Shown here: piece after piece, positions 47,805 to 52,148 of the stretch | How positions within the stretch are numbered: the first letter of the stretch is position 1 | Layout: each line of letters opens with the position of its first letter | Translations under genes and position numbers: made by a program | Notes under the pieces: generated by a model | Told to the model about the DNA's origin: nothing | Seen by the model: the letters and a program-made list of their open reading frames with translations, nothing else | Databases searched by the model: none | DNA from: Flavobacteriales bacterium | GTDB taxonomy: Bacteria > Bacteroidota > Bacteroidia > Flavobacteriales > Schleiferiaceae | Assembly (NCBI GenBank): GCA_017795025.1 | Contig: CP051243.1 | Span: 806,001 to 870,000 of the forward strand | Reading direction: 5' to 3' | Length of the DNA: 64,000 nt

Positions 47805-49301
47805 GTGTTTACCAACTTAATTGTCCTTGGGATTTACTTCGCCATTTTATTTGGAATCGGTATTGCCGCTTCGAGGCGAATAAAAAACATGGACGATTAT
47901 TACGCTGGTGGTAAAAGCTTAGGCTATTGGATGGTGGCTTTTTCGGCCCGAGCTACTGGCGAATCCGGTTGGTTACTGATAGGTTTAACCGCCATGGGGG
48001 CCTTGGCCGGAGTTTCGGCCTATTGGGTCGTGGCGGGCGAAGTTTTAGGAGTGGCGGTATCTTGGTTTTTTATGGCTAAGCCCTTTAAACGGCTCACCGA
48101 CAAATACGATTCGCTTACCATTCCAGATTTCCTTGAAAGTCATTTTGGAAGCAAAACGCACACCCTCCGTACGGTAGCCGCCTTATGTCTTTCCAGCTTT
48201 GTAATCATCTACGTAAGTGCCCAAATCGATATTACCGGTAAGGCCTTCGAAACCTTCTTAAACCTCAATTACTTTACCGGAGCCTTATTGGGCTTTTTAA
48301 TTGTGGTTGCCTACATTTTTATTGGTGGATTTTTAGCCGTAGTCTGGTCCGATTTCTTTCAAGGAATGCTCATGTTTATAGGATTACTGGCTTTGCCAGT
48401 GGTAGCCTATTTTTCTTGGGATAATCGTGCAGAACTATTTGATCGGCTACAGGCGATTGACCCCAGTCTTTTAGAACCAATGGGAGCTACCAGCGACCCT
48501 TGGATGCAAACCGCTACAATGCTAGGCTTTGCCTTTATCGGACTGGGTTTTTTAGGTTCCCCACAAGTATATGCACGCTTTATTTCGGTACGCGATACCA
48601 AGGAAATTGATAAAGGGCGTTGGGTGGCCATAGTATTCACCCTTATTAGTGATGCCGCAGCCGTGAGTATAGGTTTACTGGCGCGCGCACTTTTTACCGA
48701 TGTAGGTGCAGATCCTGAGCTAGCTCTAGGGATGAATGGGGAAGACACTTTAATGGTGCTCCTAAAGGATACTTTCCCAGCGATAATCATCGCCATTTAC
48801 ATTGCGATTATCTTATCCGCAATTATGTCCACCATTGATTCGCTCTTGGTAGTCGCCTCCTCTGCTATTGTAAGAGACCTCTATCAAAAGGTGTTTCACC
48901 CGGATATTAGTAGCGAAAAACTCACTAAGCTATCTTCCTATATTACTTTAGGAAATGCCATGTTAGCCTTGGGTTTGGCTATGATGGTGGCGATTAATGT
49001 GCCCGGAAGAACGGTATTTTGGTTTACGATTTTCGGCTGGTCAGGCATTGCGGCTACCTTTTGTCCCATGATTATCATGTCCCTATTTTGGAAGGGCTTT
49101 GAAGAGAAGGGAGCTTTGGCTGCAATGATCAGTGGTTTCCTAGCGGTGCCTTTCTTTAAGTTTTACGTTCAGGAATTACCGAATATTGGCCCTTACTTCG
49201 AAAAGTTAGACGTGATGGGTCCGGCCTTTGCAGTATCCTTTATAATCGGAATTATCGTGAGCTTGGTTTTTGGTCTAAAAAAGGCCAATGCTAATTCTTA
49301 G
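47805..49301 (+). CDS. Sodium:solute symporter (PutP-like)
   Basis: 498-residue SSS-family transporter with about 13 membrane helices. The start IYFAILFGIGIAASRRIKNM and SLGYWMVAFSARATGESGWL, and later VWSDFFQGMLMFIG, LSAIMSTIDSLLVVASSAIV, resemble Na+/proline symporters. GTG start two bases after the decarboxylase stop, so it is in the same operon. Proline is the family default; uptake or release of an amino-sulfonate or hypotaurine-like solute is suggested by the context but not shown. The 3' end overlaps the convergent gene by 11 bases. Confidence 0.9.
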   Translation: MFTNLIVLGIYFAILFGIGIAASRRIKNMDDYYAGGKSLGYWMVAFSARATGESGWLLIGLTAMGALAGVSAYWVVAGEVLGVAVSWFFMAKPFKRLTDKYDSLTIPDFLESHFGSKTHTLRTVAALCLSSFVIIYVSAQIDITGKAFETFLNLNYFTGALLGFLIVVAYIFIGGFLAVVWSDFFQGMLMFIGLLALPVVAYFSWDNRAELFDRLQAIDPSLLEPMGATSDPWMQTATMLGFAFIGLGFLGSPQVYARFISVRDTKEIDKGRWVAIVFTLISDAAAVSIGLLARALFTDVGADPELALGMNGEDTLMVLLKDTFPAIIIAIYIAIILSAIMSTIDSLLVVASSAIVRDLYQKVFHPDISSEKLTKLSSYITLGNAMLALGLAMMVAINVPGRTVFWFTIFGWSGIAATFCPMIIMSLFWKGFEEKGALAAMISGFLAVPFFKFYVQELPNIGPYFEKLDVMGPAFAVSFIIGIIVSLVFGLKKANANS

Positions 49302-50151
49302 AATAGTACTCTTCTCGTTTCTTTGCTCGACCAGGTGCGGCCTGAAGTTGGCCGTTTTTAAAGATGAAATACTCCCACTCTAGAAAGCGCTTGTAGCCTT
49401 GTGGCGTGTCGTCCAAAAAGTCGTCGGTATGACGAATGACCAAGTTTGCTTCACCTTTAATATCACATGGGAAAATAAAGGTGCTTCCGCCGCTAGCCCA
49501 GGCGTCAGCAGTTCCTAGAGCACTGTAAACAGGGCTAAATTCCTTACCATCCCAAAAGATGTAATAGTCACCGGTGCTGCAACCACAGCCACCTTCGCAG
49601 GGGAGGTGCCAGGTGATGATATCATCGAGCTTTAAGCCGCAAGGTCCTTTACTGCTAGGAGGCCAAAAATCAGGATTGTAAGGGAATTCTTTTTTGGCAA
49701 GCAGTTGCCCATTCCGCACGGCACGAATTTGAGCAAGGTAGTTTGGATATTTTCCGGTGTCGAGCACGCGCGATAAACCATAATAGAATTTCACCGCACC
49801 GTCGGCATGACTACCAAAGGCGCAAAAAGCAATAAATCCACCCCAGATATAACCACTTTGATTGTCGTAGCTGATGCGATACCAATTGGATATTACTCCA
49901 TTTAAGGTGTCTCTTTTCCCACTACGATCATCGATTACAAGGGCCTGTCCAATGCGCATTAAGTTTAAAGCTGTGCTTTGCCGATCGGCTGATTTACGAA
50001 GTATTACACTGTCGGCAAGTAAATAGTGAAGGGGGCGAGCTTCGGGATGTGTATAATTTTCCAAATAGCTTGGATTGAACATTGGAGTTTCAATCTGAGC
50101 TTGGAGGCTTAAGGTTAAAAAAAGAAAAATGAAGAAAGGAGTCTTCTTCAA
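49291..50151 (-). CDS. Secreted SH3-like domain protein
   Basis: About 286 residues with a signal peptide (KTPFFIFLFLTLSLQAQ). Residues after this include a bacterial SH3-like stretch (VILRKSADRQSTALNLMRIGQ ... GYIWGGFIA) and a later Cys-rich segment (KGPCGLKLDD, PCEGGCGCSTGDYY). No catalytic motif is clear. The frame is open from 50196, but the signal peptide begins after a TTG at 50151, which also falls after the upstream stop at 50174. It is the last gene of the three-gene unit with the coiled-coil/sensor pair. Confidence 0.75.
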   Translation of the reverse strand: MKKTPFFIFLFLTLSLQAQIETPMFNPSYLENYTHPEARPLHYLLADSVILRKSADRQSTALNLMRIGQALVIDDRSGKRDTLNGVISNWYRISYDNQSGYIWGGFIAFCAFGSHADGAVKFYYGLSRVLDTGKYPNYLAQIRAVRNGQLLAKKEFPYNPDFWPPSSKGPCGLKLDDIITWHLPCEGGCGCSTGDYYIFWDGKEFSPVYSALGTADAWASGGSTFIFPCDIKGEANLVIRHTDDFLDDTPQGYKRFLEWEYFIFKNGQLQAAPGRAKKREEYYSKN

Positions 50152-50173: not shown

Positions 50174-51019
50174 CTATTTCTTTCCCACATGGGCAAAGGT
50201 TTGACCTAAAAGTCGAATACACAGTTTAGAGTTGTAATCGAAATCACCGGGATGCATTTCAGGGAGCATCATCTTCGCAAAATCCATAACCGTATCCTCT
50301 AATCGGTTCATATAGTCTTTATCGGGCATACCGGAAACGGTTACCGCTATAGAGATTCGCTTGAAGGTAATAAGGTAGATTTTATAGCCGTTAAAGTCGA
50401 CCCAATCTAAGGCCTGTCCATTGCGAAGCACGGCATCTTCTACCATGCGACGAATGGTGTCCAACATTAAAGAGGTCACTTCATGATCGTCAACGGCATT
50501 GTAACGGCTGCGCATCCCAAGTAGGTTACGCGCCTCATTTTCAAGTACAAAGATGTCGCTGATTTGCACTTTCTCTGCCCGCTTAGCTTCTTCAATTTCT
50601 TTCTCCTCCGGATTGAAGGTCAGATTGTCGCGATCTCGATAAAGTTCGGTGGGGTCCTTCAGCTTATTGATTTTCCCGAAGCCCAGACGTTCTTTCCAGG
50701 AGCGGAAGCGATTGCTAAAATGATTGCCAATCATATCCTCCACGATAGGAGAGAGCACCGCTTTCATTTTATCTGGATTCTCCGAAATTTCCTTTTCGAG
50801 GGTTTGATAGAATAGATGTCCAAATTCCTTGGGGAAGTCGCGACGGAATCGCATGAACCAATCCACCAAAATAGGCTCCATGTTCTGCTCCATCTTTTCC
50901 CGCACCTTTATCTCATCCTCCAATCGCTGAAGGTCAGATTCATGGGCATCTTGCTGGGCACGCTCTTCACGAAGGAGGAGGTCCTTTAAAATCTCTAAGC
51001 TATTTGGCTTCTCACTCAT
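50174..51019 (-). CDS. Sensor-like protein related to the non-OmpA part of OmpA-family proteins
   Basis: 281 soluble residues with no signal peptide. After a charged helix come PILVDWFMRFRRDFPKEFGH, SPIVEDMIGNHFSNRFRSWKE and a C-terminal alpha-beta region (ISDIFVLENEARNLLGMRS, VTSLMLDTIRRMVEDAV, YKIYLITFKRISIAVTVSG). The order resembles the cytoplasmic region of some OmpA-family proteins of cyanobacteria and proteobacteria (PIIGPAIRKAI..., then a roadblock-like sensor with FLIH, GLLL, LVSAMLTAI), but the OmpA domain is missing. Similarity is from memory and unverified. It overlaps the coiled-coil gene by 8 bases. Confidence 0.7.
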   Translation of the reverse strand: MSEKPNSLEILKDLLLREERAQQDAHESDLQRLEDEIKVREKMEQNMEPILVDWFMRFRRDFPKEFGHLFYQTLEKEISENPDKMKAVLSPIVEDMIGNHFSNRFRSWKERLGFGKINKLKDPTELYRDRDNLTFNPEEKEIEEAKRAEKVQISDIFVLENEARNLLGMRSRYNAVDDHEVTSLMLDTIRRMVEDAVLRNGQALDWVDFNGYKIYLITFKRISIAVTVSGMPDKDYMNRLEDTVMDFAKMMLPEMHPGDFDYNSKLCIRLLGQTFAHVGKK

Positions 51020-52148
51020 CGAGTAACTGACTTAAAGTTTTTAAGGTGTCCTTGATGGCTTTCATCTTTGGATCTTCCTGAGGAGCTGCCTGACGCATCA
51101 TTTGACGGCTCGACATATCCATTAAGGCCTCCATTTTGGCTTCCATACGGATATTGTTCTCCGTAATCTTACGTTCCAAATCGGCCGCTAAACTTTTAAC
51201 ATGCGCTTCTAGAGCTGGACCGCCATTGGCTCCACCCTTTTGAAGGAAGCTCATAATATCATTCTCCAGGATATCTTGAATGCCGTTTACCCGAGATTTA
51301 AGTTCATGATGTTCCTCATTTACTTTTAACTGGTTTTCGTGGATAGCGTTTACTTGATTCTTAAGTTCACCTTGGGCCTCATTTACCTTCACTTGGTTTT
51401 CGTGAATGCGTTTTTGGCCTTTTTCCAGTTCTGCTTGTTTTTCGAACAATTGCTTGCGGCTCTTGCCGGCAAATTCAAAACGCTCGTTCACACGACCTGC
51501 GAGGCGCTCTACCAAATCCTGAACCCCATCTTCAAACTCGTTTTGACGTTCGTGTAGTCGGGCTTCAATTTTCTTAGGATTAAGGGCTTGAACTTTGGCT
51601 TCCAATTTGCTGAGGCGCTCATTAACCCGCGCCTTTTGTTCGGGACTGGCACCACGGTCTAACTGACTTAAGCGCTCTTGAGTATTTTTTAGACGGTCTT
51701 TAAACTCTTGGATATCAGAGGCCATGCTCTGAATTTTGGCCTGACTTTCACCAGCCATTCCTTGAGTATTGGTCACCGTATTTTCAATAGTATTGATGCG
51801 ATCTTCCAACTGCTTACAGATTTGTGGATCCTCTAAGTTAAGACCTTTTTGAGCCTCCAACAATTTTCGCAGTCCTTCTTGTAATTTAGAAGTGTCTTCC
51901 GAATTAGGGTCACGCAATTGCATTTCTGCCTTAAGCAAGGAAATTTGCTGGTTTAGATCATCTACGGTAGAAACTAAATGTCCATTAGTAGACTCTACGC
52001 GACGGCTCAAACCTCGAAAACGATTCTCTAATCGTTCGATTTGATTACCCACCAAAATTTGCTTGATAGCTTTAAGTCGCTGCTCCTCCTGTGACAGTTG
52101 AGCAGGGTCTTTGGTTTCGATGTCTAATTTAAATTCTCGCGCTTCCAT
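51012..52148 (-). CDS. Coiled-coil protein partnered with the sensor-like protein
   Basis: 378 residues from the ATG at 52148. After MEAREFKLDIETKDPAQ comes IKQILVGNQIERLENRF, which resembles the L-x-x-L-L-x-G-x-E-x-x-x-L motif that opens the related OmpA-family proteins. The remainder is a long heptad-rich coiled coil with Glu, Lys and Gln, including a twofold 21-residue repeat (IHENQ... units), ending MKAIKDTLKTLSQLLDE. No signal or membrane segment. A GTG at 52172 would add eight residues. It overlaps the sensor-like gene by 8 bases, so the two are translated together. Function unknown. Confidence 0.72.
   Translation of the reverse strand: MEAREFKLDIETKDPAQLSQEEQRLKAIKQILVGNQIERLENRFRGLSRRVESTNGHLVSTVDDLNQQISLLKAEMQLRDPNSEDTSKLQEGLRKLLEAQKGLNLEDPQICKQLEDRINTIENTVTNTQGMAGESQAKIQSMASDIQEFKDRLKNTQERLSQLDRGASPEQKARVNERLSKLEAKVQALNPKKIEARLHERQNEFEDGVQDLVERLAGRVNERFEFAGKSRKQLFEKQAELEKGQKRIHENQVKVNEAQGELKNQVNAIHENQLKVNEEHHELKSRVNGIQDILENDIMSFLQKGGANGGPALEAHVKSLAADLERKITENNIRMEAKMEALMDMSSRQMMRQAAPQEDPKMKAIKDTLKTLSQLLDE
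51282..51407 (-). repeat. Two tandem 63-bp units in the coiled-coil gene
   Basis: Units 51407-51345 and 51344-51282 each encode 21 residues starting IHENQ-V/L-KVNE. They are close in sequence (the shared run on the plus strand starts cctcattta, at 51314 and 51377) and lie exactly 63 bases apart, so they arose by an in-frame duplication. Confidence 0.75.

Follow-up and report, generated by a model that had tools for sequence, protein, structure and literature searches.

A coiled-coil/sensor gene pair of Flavobacteriales as a probable GTPase-less remnant of a Group 1 Rup module with a predicted longin domain

In a 64,000-nucleotide stretch of a Flavobacteriales genome (contig CP051243.1; hereafter the window, whose positions serve as coordinates throughout), two minus-strand open reading frames (ORFs) exactly fill positions 50174-52148 and encode a coiled-coil protein and a second protein that we call the sensor. 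Our analyses indicate, with a probability of roughly two in three, that this pair is a remnant of a Group 1 Rup module, a bacterial small-GTPase system, and now works without its GTPase as a longin/coiled-coil scaffold. Descent from that module, loss of the GTPase, the predicted fold of the sensor, maintenance by selection and a changed alpha1 helix are supported by the results presented here.

The coiled-coil gene (51012..52148; 378 amino acids, ATG at 52148) and the sensor gene (50174..51019; 281 amino acids, ATG at 51019) overlap by eight bases (51012..51019). Both products are soluble, as proposed in an initial annotation of the sequence: their highest 19-residue mean hydropathies are 1.16 and 0.24 respectively, compared to 2.66 in the OmpA-type chain L040, no stretch of transmembrane strength was found by this measure in either, and a Pfam scan gave no OmpA (PF00691) match in either. 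The motifs singled out in that annotation were likewise confirmed, IKQILVGNQIERLENRF in the coiled-coil protein (residues 28-44; 52017..52067, minus strand) and SPIVEDMIGNHFSNRFRSW in the sensor (residues 90-108; 50696..50752, minus strand). The first type of motif is common to the short coiled-coil proteins of complete modules (alignment A2), and the second lies within the part that hhalign aligned to OmpA-type chains. In Pfam and NCBIfam scans the sensor matched no family and the coiled-coil protein gave generic coiled-coil matches only, all below cut-off. The sensor had no match among PDB chain sequences, and searches of whole-length family profiles returned just viral spike coiled-coil stretches (E 0.027 or worse), which we read as chance. 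No relatives of the window sensor were found on plasmids or viral contigs.

Descent from a Group 1 Rup module

Group 1 Rup modules, as presented in the available text of Wuichet and Sogaard-Andersen (2014; PMC4316618), combine a coiled coil, a domain of unknown function often found with OmpA, a Rab-like GTPase and a kinase or other output; their GTPases are said to resemble the Rab/Ran/Ras/Rho group closely and to lack the G3 glutamine. That text names no regulator of these GTPases and its survey couples no Rup GTPase to MglB; a longin partner lies beyond the reach of such a roadblock search. The window sensor carries this domain of unknown function, an assignment based on gene order and the link to OmpA set out below rather than on the sequences of that paper. 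The initial annotation suggested that the complex might be undescribed; its parent system is the published Group 1 Rup, and the GTPase and signalling output protein of that module, absent here, had been overlooked.

A genome search found the sensor in 11 of 59 genomes: all seven of the genus, G013 and G024 from the same family, and G047 and G058 from another family, with two copies in G003. Family-wide and class-wide searches found it in 9 of 88 and 11 of 345 genomes (the window's own genome is included in all three counts). In eight loci, one in each genome of the genus and one in G013, the pair stands alone, and we refer to these as orphans. The coiled-coil and sensor genes occur together in all eight, with a coiled-coil orthologue in 7/7 genomes of the genus (the G002 copy being cut by a contig end), and the identical 8-base overlap is present in all eight and in the GTPase-linked sister locus L021 of G024. 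An orphan-only sensor profile aligned to the profile of GTPase-linked sensors with probability 100 (E 1.9e-41).

Complete modules were found in G024, G058, G047 and the second copy of G003, where a gene for a small GTPase of 161-164 amino acids and then one for a protein of ~510 amino acids come after the coiled-coil and sensor genes. For the two loci tested, L021 and L022, the GTPases match Ras (E 9e-36 and 8e-29, respectively) and the ~510-residue proteins match histidine kinase and receiver domains. Scanning named genomes with a GTPase-linked sensor profile gave at least 574 relatives, from which 80 loci were kept (the scan loci); their counts describe the linked type, since the query was itself GTPase-linked. 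By a fixed rule the GTPase lies downstream of the sensor in 76/80, and within the locus in 79/80, the four exceptions to the rule being L050 (GTPase overlapping the sensor), L084 and L094 (GTPase upstream) and L091 (which stops at a contig end). A kinase N-terminal domain is found downstream in 76/80 and a gene with the coiled-coil motif, recognised by sequence pattern, upstream of the sensor in 75/80. In keeping with the published absence of a G3 glutamine, this residue occupies the G3 position in just two of the 54 scan loci that could be parsed by pattern (26/80 were not parsed) and in two of 11 aligned GTPases (L035 and L036), while 8/9 aligned kinase N-termini have a glutamine near their start that may be the published one. 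The best relatives of solved structure for the GTPase of the Roseivirga module are Rab GTPases (Rab14, E 5.4e-23).

Variant modules were also observed. Two GTPase matches lie downstream of one sensor in L068, L073, L080, L086, L088, L095 and L102 (and in L082), often with two kinase-type N-terminal matches, as if the output half had been duplicated. Two family f17 genomes encode, after the GTPase, a protein of just 134-139 amino acids (L032:519-938, L035:563-967) that aligns with the kinase N-terminal domain and is too short for a kinase; no coiled-coil gene is listed upstream, and this looks like another reduced form of the module.

No Rup GTPase gene occurs in the window locus. GTPase profile A3 found nothing in the window's own genome (G000, one contig, 99.97% complete), and across the genus it detected a single-domain GTPase in just one of seven genomes, G003, inside its second, complete module; a weak match in G006 falls in a 470-residue ORF. 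None was found in G013 either. A single-domain Ras-like GTPase was thus not found in 7/8 genomes with an orphan pair, and one is present in 10/10 other sensor-bearing genomes of the class sample and in G024, G058 and G047. The kinase N-terminal domain (profile A4) is likewise absent from 6/7 genomes of the genus, the window's own included, and was found in G003 alone.

We placed 52 sensors in a tree, comprising the eight orphans, 42 linked sensors and two OmpA chains as the outgroup (64 of the 80 scan sensors entered the structure alignments and 32 of those 64 the tree; rows G385 and L044 have the same sequence, and linked G237 sits on a very long branch). The orphans form one clade (support 100/100) on a long stem (1.69), with linked G024 as its sister (99/97) and linked G058 and G047 next (98/93). 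G024 keeps all four module genes between flanking genes that border the pair alone in G006 and which we take to be PpiD-like and CorC-like; the divergent PpiD-like gene is the sole constant neighbour of the pair wherever loci were read in that direction (the G002 locus is cut short of it). The tree and this synteny are most simply read as a single loss of the GTPase and kinase genes, and the tree speaks against the alternative that G024 gained its GTPase. Descent of the pair from a Group 1 Rup module by loss is highly probable. We considered G173 as a second orphan case and rejected it, as a small GTPase is present on another contig; its sensor (L034:1438-2376) has no adjoining coiled-coil gene or GTPase, possibly reflecting a scattered module. 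The coiled-coil protein is long in orphans and in linked G024 (329-433 amino acids, e.g. L021:4161-5285) compared to 105-153 amino acids in scan loci (e.g. L022:8437-8796), and so grew before the GTPase was lost.

The initial annotation had viewed the two genes as the split halves of one OmpA-family chain, and the relation to OmpA proteins that it drew is borne out for the sensor. Profile A1, in which orphan and GTPase-linked rows are mixed, detected L038 (E 5.1e-26) and L040 (E 5.3e-22), chains of 566 and 573 amino acids whose OmpA match (PF00691) is over cut-off in L040 and below it in L038, and an orphan-only profile aligned by hhalign to these two chains with probability 95.1 (E 3.4e-8) over residues 6-251. 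The first 290 residues of L040 find four plasmid records, two from Rhizobium and one each from Mesorhizobium and Nostoc. The Mesorhizobium plasmid (L130) carries a row of genes for a motif-bearing coiled-coil protein annotated as hypothetical, an 'OmpA family protein', a 'Rab family GTPase' and a cyclase. ORFs on the Nostoc plasmid (L131), whose record has no annotation there, encode a coiled-coil protein, a 763-residue chain, a GTPase and an 822-residue protein that looks kinase-like from its sequence. The relation to the OmpA N-terminal region, seen by profile and by hhalign, and the constant company of the two genes in the orphan loci leave what was first proposed unrefuted by its own test. 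The coiled-coil motif, however, is encoded by a separate gene just upstream in all four of these OmpA-type or large-chain systems (L038, L040, L130, L131), and hence the window pair is not a split chain. That a one-chain OmpA sensor was divided into two genes, possibly to form a cytoskeleton-like complex, has in its favour the homology to OmpA-type chains and the solubility of both proteins, but with the coiled coil separate in these systems too, and with no match above cut-off to cytoskeletal families for either protein in Pfam or NCBIfam, it is scarcely credible. Of the rewired cytoplasmic or cytoskeletal-like complex envisaged at first, the rewired cytoplasmic part was a fair guess and nothing points to a cytoskeleton.

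In 22/80 scan loci a gene encodes a protein of ~210 amino acids, and in 18 of them it lies directly upstream of the coiled-coil gene. The three sequences read (L022:7777-8424, L023:10522-11175, L031:2723-3352) all begin with a hydrophobic segment, and in the one scanned, from L022, a peptidoglycan-binding domain scores over the Pfam cut-off. Such a separate gene may serve as an envelope anchor, the counterpart of the anchor in OmpA chains. It was not found in the window, and a peptidoglycan-binding profile found nothing in the genus, in a search that had no positive control.

Predicted longin fold and the alpha1 helix

AlphaFold2 modelled the window sensor from 65 rows (mean predicted local distance difference test score, pLDDT, 78; predicted template modelling score, pTM, 0.50) as two long N-terminal helices (7-80 and 82-111; together residues 7-111, 50687..51001, minus strand), a weak linker and a C-terminal domain (residues 152-281; 50177..50566, minus strand; AlphaFold2, Foldseek and VIA-align 2). 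The elements of this domain follow each other in the model as strand, strand, helix, three strands and two helices, the five-stranded order of longin domains. The GTPase-linked Roseivirga sensor was modelled with the same element order (pLDDT 76, pTM 0.49). The longin fold is familiar chiefly from the Rab GTPase regulators of complex cells.

Structure comparisons by VIA-align matched the window model to the Sec22b longin domain (Z 14.4, root-mean-square deviation 2.6, 122 residues aligned), adaptor protein (AP) sigma subunits (Z 11.7-13.8), Ykt6 (12.9), CPLANE (12.7), Mon1-Ccz1 (12.2) and a Lokiarchaeota longin (11.8), and the Roseivirga model to TRAPP subunit 2j3t_D (Z 14.1, root-mean-square deviation 2.5, 125 aligned), TRAPP with Ypt1 (12.6) and Mon1-Ccz1 with Ypt7 (12.5). 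MglB is not among the 50 VIA-align matches listed for the window model, and appears as 6hjm_Q (Z 10.8) for the linked Roseivirga model. By Foldseek, the best match was a TRAPP subunit for the window model (E 1.1e-4, with MglB 6h5b_B listed at E 1.2e-3) and Ragulator and MON1A/CCZ1 for the Roseivirga model (E 1.1e-4). We attach no meaning to the differing order of matches for the two models. At the level of sequence, when 35 domain sequences were scanned with Pfam the only families matched by more than one member were Fuz_longin_1 (nine; best E 0.0046) and Intu_longin_1 (five; best E 0.0041), both below cut-off; the former family covers FUZ, MON1 and HPS1, and the latter INTU, CCZ1 and HPS4. 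These scores need not speak against a longin fold, the domain sequences being far from eukaryotic ones. Scanning 65 whole-length sensors gave DUF445 as the commonest weak match (21), ahead of Fuz_longin_1 (13), and a domain-only profile found nothing significant, with AP-4 sigma (E 0.45) and Bet5 (E 0.94) fourth and fifth of its five rows.

The initial annotation described this domain as roadblock-like; it does appear to belong to the roadblock/longin superfamily, predicted as a longin, and neither the sensor nor the seven genomes of the genus gave a match to Robl_LC7 (PF03259). One alternative is that the domain is merely a PAS-like lookalike that never bound the GTPase, with the sensor binding a ligand or serving a structural role. 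A common core does unite the longin, roadblock and PAS-like folds, according to the text available from PMC3521125, model confidence is moderate and the sequence scores stay below cut-offs. Yet the VIA-align matches listed are all to longin or closely related folds, at Z 10.9-14.4 for the window and 10.2-14.1 for the Roseivirga model, compared to the tool's typical best Z of 7-8 for models without a clear match, and the sole families recurring in the domain-only Pfam scan are those of longin-type guanine nucleotide exchange factors for Rab (RabGEFs). We consider such a lookalike improbable. The domain of unknown function of Rup sensors is very probably a longin domain, as predicted from the models, an assignment that is new here; the open-access literature found, in which the available text of PMC4316618 alone treats Rup systems, gave no description of a longin partner for a Rup GTPase.

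In Mon1-Ccz1 and TRAPP the alpha1 helices of a longin pair form the main Rab-binding surface, and alpha1 double mutants have no detectable exchange activity, as stated in the part of PMC5216073 available. The corresponding helix of the predicted longin domain spans residues 179-198 in the window sensor (50426..50485, minus strand; model, conservation counts and alignment), its residues being placed by alignment to linked sensors. Conservation was counted over 73 linked sensors (64 scan sensors and nine further ones; G173 and G207 were left out), in which alpha1 approximates D-x-D-M-x-x-G-M-L-T-A-I-K-x-F; in the alignment the OmpA chains and the Mesorhizobium and Nostoc sequences retain much of this signature. 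None of the eight orphans keeps D180, M181, T187, A188 or F192, and just one keeps G184, which is leucine in the other seven. Of the conserved columns within 176-198 (n=16), orphans keep 0.45 and linked G024 0.94. At most alpha1 positions, the seven genomes of the genus agree on the new residues.

Might the pair still regulate a different GTPase encoded elsewhere, either a large one or a Ras-like protein too divergent for our profiles? The predicted longin domain is kept under selection, and the window's own genome has three matches to the Pfam Ras model. Against this, 24 of the 25 Ras matches in the genus fall in ORFs of at least 400 amino acids (the exception is the complete second module of G003), none lies in a small ORF of the window's own genome and such matches also occur in 13/14 control genomes. 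With the GTPase profile silent in that genome as well, and the alpha1 signature of linked sensors mostly gone, we judge this unlikely.

Maintenance and putative function of the pair

The pair is under purifying selection. Reading frames are open in 8/8 orphan loci (allowing for the truncated G002 coiled-coil gene), and between G001 and G005 the sensor has a ratio of nonsynonymous to synonymous substitution rates (dN/dS) of 0.008 and the coiled coil one of 0.064, compared to 0.059, 0.024 and 0.018 for three nearby genes, the sensor thus being lowest of the five. This pair of genomes was used to measure selection because almost every comparison with the window is saturated in dS. A functionless relic of GTPase and kinase loss, on its way out, could explain why both main parts of the module are gone and why many formerly conserved sites changed; it fits poorly with open frames, a retained 8-base overlap, the low sensor dN/dS and agreement across the genus on the new alpha1 residues, and is very unlikely.

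We propose the following scheme. Within a complete module, a soluble scaffold would arise from binding between the coiled-coil protein and the long sensor helices, which probably pack together; the sensor's own longin domain would probably pair with another one and grip the GTPase via alpha1 helices, by analogy with the eukaryotic RabGEFs TRAPP and Mon1-Ccz1. The sensor would thereby set the nucleotide state of the GTPase and so gate the kinase. In the window lineage, the GTPase and kinase would have been lost once, the sensor changing fast and then settling, and the pair would persist as a GTPase-independent scaffold or adaptor that serves another partner. This putative GTPase-independent function we favour slightly. 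The wider proposal, that a bacterial longin protein is the partner of Group 1 Rup GTPases and regulates a Rab-like GTPase through its alpha1 face, and that the window holds a GTPase-less adaptor with a rebuilt alpha1, we advance tentatively, at a little under even odds.

Several points weigh against reading the pair as a GTPase-less scaffold derived in this way. Alpha1 is not special in having changed, because helix 82-111 changed more (orphans keep 0.27 and G024 0.81 of 21 columns) and strands 151-172 changed too (0.55 and 1.00 of seven columns), and general fast change on the long stem could account for what alpha1 has lost. In the model, the alpha1 part (residues 171-200) has a pLDDT of about 64-71, within an overall pTM of 0.50, and sequence support for a longin is below Pfam cut-offs, the window sensor itself matching no Pfam family. 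The scan is biased to the linked type by its queries, and with dS saturated for nearly all window comparisons the selection figure comes from one other pair. Finally, any partner or activity of the pair is putative.

The Rab-longin pairing is usually traced to archaea and early eukaryotes. If our proposal is true, it would be old and widespread in bacteria, given homologous domains in Bacteroidota, Mesorhizobium and Nostoc, and the window genus would show the fate of such a complex after GTPase loss, in parallel to the longin domains of SNAREs and clathrin adaptors. A longin-fold partner would be a concrete candidate regulator for Group 1 Rup GTPases, tying bacterial signalling to RabGEF machinery, and the orphan clade provides a natural loss experiment, in which loss of the GTPase went with change at sites conserved across linked sensors, some of them all the way from Nostoc to Roseivirga, which helps to propose the face that binds the GTPase. 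We regard the predicted occurrence in bacteria of a longin domain next to a Rab-like GTPase as a broader and more interesting result than the GTPase-less variant.

Next after the sensor, between it and a transporter, lies a gene for a predicted secreted SH3-like protein (49291-50151; SH3 match below cut-off), whose probable start is TTG at 50151, inferred from a signal-peptide-like start. The initial annotation was right that this gene follows the pair in the window, but the six other members of the genus lack it beside the sensor, so that it belongs to no conserved unit and we regard it as a neighbour.

Comparison with known systems

With Group 1 Rup, on the available text of PMC4316618, the window pair shares a cytoplasmic coiled-coil protein and a protein with the unknown domain, adjacent and in the same order. 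It differs in having no Rup GTPase, output protein, or transmembrane or OmpA part, in its longer coiled-coil protein and in an alpha1 signature that is mostly replaced. The OmpA-family proteins of Rup loci (L038, L040, L130) share with the window sensor a homologous helical region and the longin-like domain but continue into a longer C-terminal part, whereas the window sensor stops after the predicted longin domain.

What links the window domain, as predicted, to MglA-MglB is the kinship of the roadblock and longin folds (available text of PMC3521125), though the seven genomes of the genus have neither an MglA-type small GTPase nor a Robl_LC7 match. Actinobacterial conservons CvnA-D comprise a histidine kinase, a protein of GTPase-binding fold, a protein of unknown function and a small GTPase, in the account available from PMC13343842. 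The parent Rup module has the same logic of parts; the conservon, however, uses an MglB-type roadblock and an MglA-family GTPase, and the window has neither GTPase nor kinase. A full conservon set is missing from the window's own genome, in which no small GTPase and no Robl_LC7 were found.

The longin RabGEFs (TRAPP Bet5/Trs23, Mon1-Ccz1 and Fuzzy-Inturned) share the predicted fold, and the parent Rup module likewise neighbours a Rab-like GTPase. In contrast to them, the window sensor is bacterial, is significant by its predicted fold alone and has no GTPase in its genome, any exchange activity being putative.

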